Positions 23,753-27,346 of a stretch of 64,000 nucleotides of DNA are shown here, in pieces. The DNA is from Megasphaera massiliensis (lineage in GTDB: Bacteria; Bacillota; Negativicutes; Veillonellales; Megasphaeraceae). The notes under the pieces were generated by a model, which was given only the letters and a program-made list of their open reading frames with translations, was not told the DNA's origin and ran no database searches. Within the stretch, counting starts at the first letter, position 1, and each line of letters opens with the position of its first letter. A program made the position numbers and the translations under genes. Where the stretch lies: positions 70,096-134,095 of the forward strand of contig NZ_HF954537.1 of assembly GCF_000455225.1 (NCBI RefSeq), in the 5' to 3' direction.

Positions 23753-23810
23753 TTTTGGCGGATCATCCCGATTCTGTTGGGAAAAGCCGGCTTTCAGTAG
23801 GCAAAAAGTC

Positions 23811-23824
23811 TTTACCATGGTAAA
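23811..23824. promoter_or_regulatory. Perfect palindrome upstream of Nudix/restriction pair
   Basis: TTTACCATGGTAAA is a perfect 14-base palindrome, 32 bases before the Nudix start codon, and its right end overlaps a possible -10 (TAAAAT). It could be a repressor site. No matching -35 was found at 17 bases. Confidence 0.4.
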
Positions 23825-23855
23825 ATAGGGAAAAACGAGGAAAGAAGGACGTGTG

Positions 23856-24254
23856 ATGAAGCATTTGGAAGTGGTGGCAGCGATTTTAGAATACGACGGA
23901 AGGATCCTCTGTATGGAACGAGGACAGGGGAAGTTCGACTACGTCAGCTTTAAGTATGAATTCCCGGGCGGGAAAATCGAGCCCGGTGAGGCGAAGCACG
24001 AAGCGATTGAACGGGAACTGCGGGAAGAAATGGACGTCCATGTATCGGTCCGGGAAGAAGACCTCTATATGACCGTCCATCACGACTATCCCGATTTTTC
24101 CATCAGCCTCCATGCCTTTTACTGCCGGCTGGATAATCCTGATTTCATCCGAAAAGAACACGTCGCCGCCAAGTGGTTGGCGCCAAAAGATCTGCCGACC
24201 TTGGACTGGGCTCCGGCGGACGTGCCGATCATGCTTAAATTAGCCGGAAAGTAG
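23856..24254 (+). CDS. NudG-like Nudix (deoxy)nucleotide pyrophosphohydrolase
   Basis: Nudix hydrolase of 132 residues. The Nudix box spans residues 39-61 (GKIEPGE, seven residues, then RELREE). The start KHLEVVAAILEYDGRIL, the LHAFYC strand and the end WAPADVPIM resemble E. coli NudG/MutT-type enzymes that hydrolyse damaged or methylated dNTPs such as 5-methyl-dCTP and 8-oxo-dGTP. The true substrate is not shown by sequence. ATG at 23856 follows GAAGGA; a GTG directly before it is possible. The gene ends 8 bases before a modified-DNA restriction enzyme gene, and the two probably form one transcript. Confidence 0.87.
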   Translation: MKHLEVVAAILEYDGRILCMERGQGKFDYVSFKYEFPGGKIEPGEAKHEAIERELREEMDVHVSVREEDLYMTVHHDYPDFSISLHAFYCRLDNPDFIRKEHVAAKWLAPKDLPTLDWAPADVPIMLKLAGK

Positions 24255-24262
24255 GCGGAGTC

Positions 24263-27139
24263 ATGGCGGAATACGGAGCCCTTGAACAGTGCCTGCGCGA
24301 AGGCTTTATCGACTATACCATCGAAGCCGACCAGCGCTATGTGCCGAAAATCCTGACGAATAATAAAGAAAAGAAACGAAAGGTCCTCGACACCATCTTG
24401 TCGCAGCTCTACGTCTGCGACCAGTTTCTGTTTTCTGTCGCCTTTCTGACCAAGAGCGGCATTGCCTGCCTGAAGGATGCCCTCATCGAAAATCACAGGG
24501 CCGTAGGGAAGATACTGGCCTCGCAGTACCTGAATTTTACAGAGCCCGATGCCTTGCGGGAGCTGTTGAAATTTCCCAATGTAGAACTGCGGATGGTGAC
24601 CGAAGAACGGGCCTTCCATGCCAAAGGCTACCTCTTTCACCGCGCTCAGGCCGGGCCCGAAAACTATACCATGGTCATCGGCAGCAGCAATATGACGGCC
24701 AATGCCTTGACGCACAATCAGGAATGGAACGTCTTTTTTACGTCGGCTGAAAACGGGGCCCTCATCCGTCAGACACAAGAGGAATTCCAAGCCTTGTGGG
24801 ATACGGCGGAAGTCGTCGATGAAGATTGGATCCAGGCCTATCAAAGCATTTATAAACGCCAGAATCCGAGAAAAAGGGGCTTGTATCTGCCCTTTCATAA
24901 GATTCAGCCCAATACCATGCAAAAGGCGGCCCTCGCGGGCATTCAGAAGCTTCGTGACCAGGGGGAAGACCGGGGGCTGTTGATTTCGGCGACGGGGACC
25001 GGCAAGACCTATCTGTCGGCCTTCGATGTCATGAAACTGAGGCCGCGGCGGTTCCTCTTCGTCGTCCATCGCGAGCTCATCGTCAAAAGCGCTCGTGCCA
25101 GCTACGTCAAAGTCGGCGTCGATCCGGCCGACACGGGTCTATTGACAGGGCACGATAAAGACGTCGACAAGCCTTATCTTTTTGCGACGATACAGACCTT
25201 ATCCCGTGATGACATCCTCTATTCCTTTGCTCCCGATGCCTTTGACTACATCGTCATGGATGAAGTCCATCATGGGGGAGCGGCGACGTATCAGAAGGTA
25301 CTTGACTACTTTAAGCCAACGTTCCTCTTGGGCATGACGGCGACGCCGGAACGGTCCGATGATTTCGATATTTACGCCTTGTTTCACCACCAGATTGCCT
25401 ATGAGATCCGCCTTCACGACGCCTTATCCGAAAATATGCTGGTGCCCTTCCATTATCATGGTGTCAGCGAAATCACGGTCAATGGCGAGGTCCTCGATGA
25501 CAACAGTGATTTTACGGCCCTGACCTGTGAAGAACGGGTGCGGCACATTCTCCATTATGCCGACCTCTACGGCAGTGATACGGACCGCGTCAAAGGCCTT
25601 GTCTTTTGCCGCAGCGTCGAAGAAGCGCGAACTCTGGCGGCTGCTTTTGTCAAACACGGCCGACGGGCCGTGGCCTTGACCGGCGCCTCGACAGAGCGTG
25701 AACGGCAGGACGCCATCGGTCATTTAGAAGCCAGGGCCGAAGAAGACGGTGACTATTTGGATTATATCTTTACCTGCGATATCCTTAATGAAGGCGTCGA
25801 TATTCCTCAGGTCAATCAAGTTATCATGCTGCGTCCGACGGCATCGGCCATCGTCTTCGTCCAGCAGCTGGGGCGCGGCCTTCGAAAGTATCCCTATAAG
25901 CGCTATTTAGAAGTCCTCGACTTCATCGGCAACTATGAAAATAACTTTCTCCTGCCCATTGCCCTCTTTGGCGACCGGACCTACGATAAGGATTTTGTCC
26001 GCAGTCTGATGCAGACCAATTTCCTGCCCGGACCGACGTCGGTCCACTTCGACGACATTGCCAAGGAGCGAATCTATGCGGCCATCGACAAAAAGAAGGC
26101 CTTAGCCGATTTAGACGACTTGAAAAACGCCTATCGCGACATGAAATGCCGTTTGGGCAGAGAGCCCATGATGATGGATTTTGTCCGTTTTGGCGATAAG
26201 GATCCGATGCTGTTCATTGCCAAAAAAGAGTCCTTCTATGAATTTTCCCAGTATATGGAGCCGCAGCCGTCGACGCTGAATGACGCCCACCGGGTCGTGC
26301 TGAAGCTGATGAGCTTAGAACTTTCAAATGGAAAACGCATCGAAGAGATCTTGATCCTTCGTCATGTCCTGGCCGGATCGTCGTGGTCGACGGCGGACCT
26401 TGCGGCAGAGATGGAGCGATTGTACGGATTCCTGCCTTCGACGGAAACGATGGACCATGCTGCCCGGGTATTAAGTCTGCAATTTTTTGGCAAAAAGGCG
26501 CAGCAGAAATATGGAGGTTCACCCCTCCTTTCTTTTGAAAACCATGTCTATCGGTCGACTCCGTATTTTGAATCCTTGAAACAGAACGCCGAATTTAAGG
26601 CCTATGTCCACGATGTCCTCGATTACGGGACGTATCGCTTTGAATCCCTGTATATTCAAGATGATCCCGATATCGTCGGCGGTTTTGTACGCTATGGACG
26701 CTATTCCCGAAAAGACGTATCGCGCATTCTCAATTACGATACGAACCGCGAAGGGACGCTGAACGGCTATCAAATCGTCGGACATACGTGTCCCATCTTC
26801 GTTACCTATGAAAAGTGTGACGATATTTCAGCCAATACGAAGTATGAAGACCGATTCATATCCCCGCAGGAGTTCAGTTGGATGACCCGGGCCCGCGTTC
26901 GCCTGACCTCTTCCCAGATTCCGGCTATTCAGGACAGCCGTACGCGGAAGCTGCTGTTCGTGAAAAAGAGCGATGCCGAAGGGTCGAACTTCTACTATAT
27001 CGGCGATTTAAAGGTCCTCGGCGATCCCGTAGAGACGACCATTGCCAACGATGCCGGCGTGCAGCTGCCCATCGTCAATTTTCGATTTGTCATCGATAAG
27101 CCTGTCGAAGAGAAACTCTACACCTATCTTTGTGAATAA
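24263..27139 (+). CDS. SauUSI-like type IV restriction enzyme (PLD-helicase-DUF3427)
   Basis: Large enzyme of 958 residues. Domains in order: a phospholipase D-type nuclease (to about 180; His119-x-Lys121 in FHAKGYLF and GSSNMTANAL), a superfamily 2 helicase (Walker A SATGTGKT at 242-249, DEVHH at 333-337, motif VI QQLGRGLRK near 534-542), and a C-terminal region matching DUF3427 (for example RYSRKDVSRILNYD and FVTYEKCDDISANTKY). This order and length match Staphylococcus SauUSI, which cuts DNA carrying 5-methyl- or 5-hydroxymethylcytosine using ATP. A defence role is inferred. It sits in a housekeeping locus beside a Nudix gene. Ribosome site GGCGGAG precedes the ATG. Confidence 0.87.
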   Translation: MAEYGALEQCLREGFIDYTIEADQRYVPKILTNNKEKKRKVLDTILSQLYVCDQFLFSVAFLTKSGIACLKDALIENHRAVGKILASQYLNFTEPDALRELLKFPNVELRMVTEERAFHAKGYLFHRAQAGPENYTMVIGSSNMTANALTHNQEWNVFFTSAENGALIRQTQEEFQALWDTAEVVDEDWIQAYQSIYKRQNPRKRGLYLPFHKIQPNTMQKAALAGIQKLRDQGEDRGLLISATGTGKTYLSAFDVMKLRPRRFLFVVHRELIVKSARASYVKVGVDPADTGLLTGHDKDVDKPYLFATIQTLSRDDILYSFAPDAFDYIVMDEVHHGGAATYQKVLDYFKPTFLLGMTATPERSDDFDIYALFHHQIAYEIRLHDALSENMLVPFHYHGVSEITVNGEVLDDNSDFTALTCEERVRHILHYADLYGSDTDRVKGLVFCRSVEEARTLAAAFVKHGRRAVALTGASTERERQDAIGHLEARAEEDGDYLDYIFTCDILNEGVDIPQVNQVIMLRPTASAIVFVQQLGRGLRKYPYKRYLEVLDFIGNYENNFLLPIALFGDRTYDKDFVRSLMQTNFLPGPTSVHFDDIAKERIYAAIDKKKALADLDDLKNAYRDMKCRLGREPMMMDFVRFGDKDPMLFIAKKESFYEFSQYMEPQPSTLNDAHRVVLKLMSLELSNGKRIEEILILRHVLAGSSWSTADLAAEMERLYGFLPSTETMDHAARVLSLQFFGKKAQQKYGGSPLLSFENHVYRSTPYFESLKQNAEFKAYVHDVLDYGTYRFESLYIQDDPDIVGGFVRYGRYSRKDVSRILNYDTNREGTLNGYQIVGHTCPIFVTYEKCDDISANTKYEDRFISPQEFSWMTRARVRLTSSQIPAIQDSRTRKLLFVKKSDAEGSNFYYIGDLKVLGDPVETTIANDAGVQLPIVNFRFVIDKPVEEKLYTYLCE

Positions 27140-27153
27140 TTGTCTGTTGCTGA

Positions 27154-27184
27154 AATGTCATGAACGGGTCGTCATGGCATTTTT
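27154..27184 (+). terminator. Terminator of the Nudix/restriction pair
   Basis: AATGTCATGA pairs with TCATGGCATT (one G-U) and is followed by a short T run, 15 bases past the stop codon. Confidence 0.7.
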
Positions 27185-27346
27185 GGCGTTACCTTTTAAC
27201 CTTTGAAGGCAGCGAAACGGTCGAGCCAGGTGCCGCCTGCCTTCAGAACCAAAAACTTTACGGGGCAATTGTGGTACATTGTCCGGAAATGTGGTAAACT
27301 AGTGTAGTTACAGTTGAGATGTGGAGAGAGAGGTGTCTTTTTACGT

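Follow-up and report, generated by a model that had tools for sequence, protein, structure and literature searches.

A Nudix hydrolase encoded beside a SauUSI-type restriction enzyme: a widespread gene pair that may combine type IV restriction with cleaning of the nucleotide pool

In a 64,000 nucleotide stretch of the Megasphaera massiliensis genome (contig NZ_HF954537.1, positions 70,096 to 134,095; referred to here as the window), a gene for a Nudix hydrolase lies directly upstream of a gene for a SauUSI-type type IV restriction enzyme. The pairing is real and widespread, and apparently represents a combination of known parts that is undescribed as a system. On balance, it seems probable that the two genes constitute a single restriction module, in which a nuclease directed against modified DNA is accompanied by a pyrophosphatase directed against modified dCTP, with the Nudix protein serving for self-protection; both this protective role and the specificity of the window protein are what we infer, rather than direct observations. 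That the two act as one defence module was originally predicted from the sequence of the window alone, and is supported by the recurrent adjacency of the genes and by fusions of related Nudix domains to other modification-dependent nucleases. Both open reading frames are intact and on the same strand, and their coordinates and domain matches bear out the predicted arrangement of a Nudix gene separated by eight bases from a gene with the domain order PLD-ResIII-Helicase_C-DUF3427:

23856..24254, + strand: Nudix hydrolase gene, 132 amino acids (PADLOC PDC-S07, 1.3e-42; PDB 3gwy, 1.9e-42)
23970..24038, + strand: Nudix box, G39-x5-E45-x7-R53-E54-L-x-E57-E58, with all catalytic residues kept
24255..24262, + strand: intergenic gap of 8 base pairs (bp), from the coordinates of both reading frames
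24263..27139, + strand: SauUSI-type type IV restriction enzyme gene, 958 amino acids (PADLOC mREase_IV, 4.2e-214; PDB 7clg)
24554..24799, + strand: PLD nuclease domain with HxK (H119, K121) and GSxN (GSSN), by domain match and alignment to SauUSI
24899..25885, + strand: superfamily 2 (SF2) motor, with Walker A SATGTGKT from residue 242, DEVH from residue 333, and Helicase_C
26309..27130, + strand: DUF3427, including the SRA modified-base reader (domain match 8.3e-78; pocket by alignment)

The Nudix protein has an intact catalytic box, the G/E/R/E/E/E residues of which are kept in all 129 of the aligned Nudix sequences that cover it, and matches the PDC-S07 / 3GWY subfamily. It had been described as NudG-like, which holds only as a loose resemblance, because its score of 87.1 bits against the NudG equivalog (PRK10546) falls short of the NCBIfam cut-off of 156. 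The closest solved relative is instead the 'CTP pyrophosphohydrolase' of Bacteroides fragilis (3GWY/Q5LBB1; 51% identical), which Xu et al. 2016 screened on 74 compounds (PMC5158307). In that study, kcat/Km (in M-1 s-1) was 6.7e6 for 5-Me-CTP, 4.8e6 for 5-Me-dCTP, 4.4e6 for 5-MeOH-dCTP and 8.5e4 for 5-OH-dCTP, the last of these, an oxidised nucleotide, hence being about 50-fold poorer than 5-Me-dCTP; canonical NTPs were far weaker substrates, and cleavage occurred between the alpha and beta phosphates (PMC5158307). Extrapolating from this relative, the window protein is predicted to be a C5-substituted (d)CTP pyrophosphohydrolase. The NudG protein of E. coli (Orf135), a CTP/dCTP/5-methyl-dCTP pyrophosphohydrolase, shares the fold and a related substrate (PMC5158307, PMC3744803). 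Eukaryotic DCTPP1-type enzymes likewise act on pooled 5-methyl-dCTP (PMC4491611), but they are MazG-like, with an unrelated fold, and have no nuclease partner.

The restriction enzyme finds its best PDB match in SauUSI of Staphylococcus aureus (7clg, about 3e-206), whose domain order and length it matches and whose HxK, Walker A and DExH motifs it retains, along with the greater part of the SRA pocket. The active site of SauUSI is formed by His-119 and Lys-121, and its SRA pocket, which recognises both 5-methylcytosine (5mC) and 5-hydroxymethylcytosine (5hmC), by Tyr-831, Phe-841, Asp-858 and Trp-868 (PMC7913695). The window nuclease has a PLD domain with HxK and GSxN, a Walker A and DExH motor and a DUF3427/SRA reader with a 5mC pocket, in which the equivalents of Y831, F841, D858 and W868 are kept, while I842 is replaced by V and the base-flipping intercalator Met829 by Asn. 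Judged by these motifs, both the nuclease and the Nudix protein look active. Two Bacteroidota homologues of SauUSI (L012 and L037) carry an additional C-terminal Peptidase_S24-like (LexA/UmuD-type) domain at residues of about 1004-1140, which may tie the nuclease to a damage response.

The linkage between the two genes was surveyed by collecting 80 SauUSI homologues using the nuclease alone as the query, blind to the Nudix gene. An adjacent Nudix gene is present in 75 of them, drawn from hosts in the Bacteroidota, Bacillota, Spirochaetota, Actinomycetota, Pseudomonadota and archaea; the recurrence sought by the original prediction therefore extends well beyond the genus, to several phyla and both domains. 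The Nudix gene is upstream in 52 cases, mostly with an overlap of a few bases, downstream in 20 and convergent in three, which implies that gene order has been repeatedly rearranged while adjacency persisted. The distance matrices of the two proteins are also strongly correlated (r = 0.85 over 70 pairs, against a permutation maximum of 0.27). Plasmid copies in Lactiplantibacillus, Latilactobacillus and Hymenobacter carry both genes, and in S. aureus itself the gene directly upstream of SauUSI is that of PDB 5x1x, with no mismatch along the aligned part of the protein. No SauUSI was found in viral_contigs.

Among the five homologues without an adjacent Nudix gene, one (L083) is an incomplete gene on a short contig and two (L059 and L060) represent the same DNA, while at L021, L059 and L062 a related Nudix is encoded elsewhere in the genome. 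Substitution of the Nudix by a non-homologous pyrophosphatase was considered at these last three loci, and inspection by eye recognised no such adjoining gene. Several of the surveyed records have peculiarities of their own. The stretch shared by L059 and L060 is nearly identical between a Jeotgalicoccus genome and a 'Sporosarcina psychrophila' metagenome-assembled genome, which is likely to reflect contamination. In a 30-kilobase (kb) linear 'plasmid' record of S. aureus (L175, NZ_CP077890.1), the Nudix-SauUSI region of the chromosome is repeated in inverted orientation and the SauUSI frame is interrupted; the record is probably a chromosomal assembly fragment. On an L. plantarum plasmid (L178:5877-7957, NZ_CP028230.1), the Nudix-SauUSI pair is directly followed by another combination of nucleotide pyrophosphatase and nuclease-like protein, here a MazG-like pyrophosphohydrolase with a GIY-YIG/Schlafen-group-3 helicase.

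The same association is evident on a finer scale within the family to which Megasphaera belongs. The Nudix gene is present in seven of 17 genomes and DUF3427 in exactly those seven, a coincidence with a probability of 1 in 19,448 by chance, and the two are adjacent in every one. In four of these genomes (G000, G009, G006 and G002) the pair directly precedes the PIN/TRAM-IspDF genes, with radA on its other side in G000 and G009; the corresponding stretches of G004, G011 and G012 lack the PIN/TRAM-IspDF neighbours, indicating that there the pair is located elsewhere. Within the family, the pair is gained and lost as one unit.

Linkage was also quantified in 298 evenly sampled Bacillota genomes, being scored when a Nudix lay within 3 kb of the nuclease domain. 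It was found for 11 of 14 full SauUSI proteins, seven of 26 divergent DUF3427 proteins and nine of 15 SRA-HNH nucleases, compared with 0.01-0.02 expected by chance for each group. In total 27 of the 101 Nudix matches were linked to DUF3427 or SRA-HNH nucleases, and these were enriched among the top scores (11 of the top 20 vs one of the last 21). Where their surroundings were examined, many of the unlinked Nudix genes have metabolic neighbours.

As the SRA-HNH figure indicates, relatives of 3GWY are found beside, or fused to, modification-dependent nucleases of other architectures. The McrA/TagI-like SRA-HNH partners combine an SRA reader fold with an HNH domain, as confirmed by an AlphaFold2 (AF2) model (pLDDT 89.7) that resembles the SRA-5mC DNA structure of SUVH5 (Z 13.8), the HNH domain of EcoKMcrA (Z 12.5) and the SRA domain of SauUSI (Z 10.2). 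Searching with the Nudix led to 13 viral-contig loci at which an SRA-HNH gene is next to it; when viral-contig SRA-HNH loci were instead found independently of the Nudix, 23 of 33 had one, although about one third of these loci are near-copies. Most of the plasmid SRA-HNH genes examined have no Nudix. A fused Nudix, which had also been suggested as something to look for, does exist on such nucleases: C-terminal fusions with Pfam matches to both HNH and NUDIX occur on the Paenibacillus polymyxa plasmid pSb31l and in G585 and G621, and in G856 and G832 the NUDIX domain follows a stretch that resembles the SRA-HNH queries, without a Pfam HNH match. In an N-terminal Nudix-SRA-HNH fusion (L274:2617-3834) the box is degenerate (RHVKEKLG vs REUxEExG) and the catalytic residues are lost.

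The third partner is McrBC. In G443, which we take to be the chromosome of B. fragilis NCTC 9343, a Nudix 99% identical to 3GWY is divergent from a pair of McrB-like and McrC-like genes. This McrB has an N-terminal domain matching the 5mC-binding domain of E. coli McrB (3ssc, 1.9e-29) followed by an AAA domain, and the McrC is of the PD-(D/E)XK type. The B. fragilis protein thus shares with the window Nudix its box, its PADLOC family and its location beside type IV restriction genes, but differs in that its partner is McrBC rather than SauUSI and in its divergent orientation. In G679 a Nudix and an McrC gene are separated by 7 bp, and in G616 the coordinates alone place the two side by side; because linkage to McrC is sparse beyond these genomes, McrBC is the least well supported of the three partners.

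Some further neighbours of this Nudix group were recorded. At four Bacteroidales loci (L149, L152, L166 and L169) only a few bp separate relatives of it from a gene for a Schlafen-group-3 helicase (PADLOC PDC-S41), which is possibly another partner. At L193:3844-4371 an EVE-like modified-base reader, with a weak Pfam score, is about 50 bp from a Nudix that is 65% identical to the SauUSI-linked Nudix of L061, and at L161:5099-6172 a Nudix is fused to a TM1586-type nitroreductase.

The favoured reading, of nuclease and pool cleaning combined for self-protection, would operate as follows. The SauUSI-type enzyme would flip out 5mC or 5hmC through its SRA domain, translocate at the expense of ATP and cut through its PLD domain. 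Having no cognate methyltransferase, it would spare host DNA only for want of these bases in the target context. The Nudix would remove 5-methyl- and 5-hydroxymethyl-dCTP from the host pool, such that the nuclease finds no target in host DNA, and would thereby be the metabolic counterpart of the protective methyltransferase in restriction-modification systems. The substrate list of 3GWY and the target list of SauUSI coincide, each comprising the 5-methyl and 5-hydroxymethyl forms of cytosine, a match on which we have met no earlier comment, and the reading is supported by the intact genes, the linkage to three unrelated 5mC/5hmC-reading chassis, the fusions and the joint inheritance.

Several observations weigh in the opposite direction. 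In the light of T4 biology, the CMP kinase of bacteria is not known to accept 5hm-dCMP, so there may be little modified dCTP in a host unless a phage supplies a kinase. In four of the seven Megasphaera genomes bearing the pair, no C5-methyltransferase is detectable; such a host enzyme was considered as a universal source of 5-methyl-dCMP, and is not general for this reason. Among the Bacillota, 74 of the 101 Nudix matches are not beside DUF3427 or SRA-HNH nucleases, which implies other roles too in the wider family. There is no adjacent Nudix at three of the 14 full SauUSI genes, six of the 15 SRA-HNH genes, most divergent DUF3427 genes and most McrC genes, counts that are softened by the at least three SauUSI exceptions with a related Nudix elsewhere in the genome.

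The main rival to self-protection is a two-layered attack on phage, in which the Nudix starves modified-cytosine phages of 5-hm-dCTP or 5-Me-dCTP and the nuclease cuts what escapes, protection of the host being secondary. The linkage and substrate data fit it equally, and the Nudix alone is listed by PADLOC as a phage-defence candidate. Phages that replace cytosine fully modify the nucleotide before polymerisation, as with the dCMP hydroxymethylase and gp1 kinase of T4 and in XP12, which makes the triphosphate a real target. However, less modified phage DNA would blunt the adjacent nuclease, putting the two parts partly at odds, and the tight fusion or overlap with the nuclease suits protection from it at least as well. 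Phage starvation as the primary function is considered the less likely explanation, but it shares its chemistry with self-protection and both may operate together.

A generic house-cleaning Nudix of the MutT/NudG type, acting on oxidised nucleotides and merely neighbouring a restriction gene, would be in keeping with the family resemblance to NudG and MutT and with the many unlinked Bacillota relatives. It is very improbable given an adjacency of 75/80 in varied gene orders, the fusions, the three unrelated nuclease partners and the poor activity of 3GWY on oxidised 5-OH-dCTP. Equally improbable is a Nudix with a regulatory effect on the nuclease or with an effector role, for example through hydrolysis of a signal nucleotide or depletion of dCTP after infection: other conflict systems do contain Nudix domains (PMC7159879), but the substrate measured in this subfamily carries the very base that the partner nucleases read, canonical NTPs are far weaker substrates, and the window reading frames and their domain matches include no sensor or signal-synthase gene next to the pair.

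Two further features flank the pair in the window:

23798..23826, + strand: promoter-like site TAGGCA-17-TAAAAT, with TG before the -10; a weak consensus match
about 27146..27190, + strand: putative terminator hairpin with a T run (fold -16.3 kcal/mol, z -3.1)

The promoter-like site is weak in that the consensus scan gave three matches vs 2.5 expected in shuffled sequence; the same scan placed none between the two genes. The single terminator that had been proposed is supported by single-strand folding of the hairpin 3' of the SauUSI-type gene, but is absent from the output of the consensus terminator scan.

With regard to precedent, none of the papers in the collection searched was relevant to the pairing of a Nudix with restriction of the type IV, modification-dependent, McrBC or 5mC-specific kind. 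SauUSI is described as a stand-alone enzyme, with no mention of a Nudix partner in the SauUSI papers found. PDC-S07 is a single-gene candidate without a mechanism in PADLOC, where no module unites it with SauUSI, SRA-HNH or McrBC. In Streptococcus suis, PDC-S07 was co-localised with 'RM type IV' in 23 of 23 co-occurrences (PMC12813430), the paper reporting co-localisation only. The original suggestion that the pairing had not been described as a system thus agrees with the literature found.

These findings raise the prospect, which we regard as evenly balanced, of a general principle whereby the unrelated enzymes SauUSI, SRA-HNH and McrBC share a partner that sanitises the deoxynucleoside triphosphate pool in place of a protective methyltransferase; such 'restriction-sanitation' systems would define self by a clean nucleotide pool. 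The usual view is that a type IV enzyme can do without a partner, since the host simply lacks the mark. If the favoured reading is true, excluding the mark would be an active task, the orphan candidate PDC-S07 would be explained, the structural-genomics proteins 3GWY and 5X1X would gain a role, and there would be an extra gene to weigh in work on SauUSI restriction. The pair would then represent a two-part form of immunity that has been overlooked, in which the mark attacked by the nuclease is kept out of the DNA of the cell itself.

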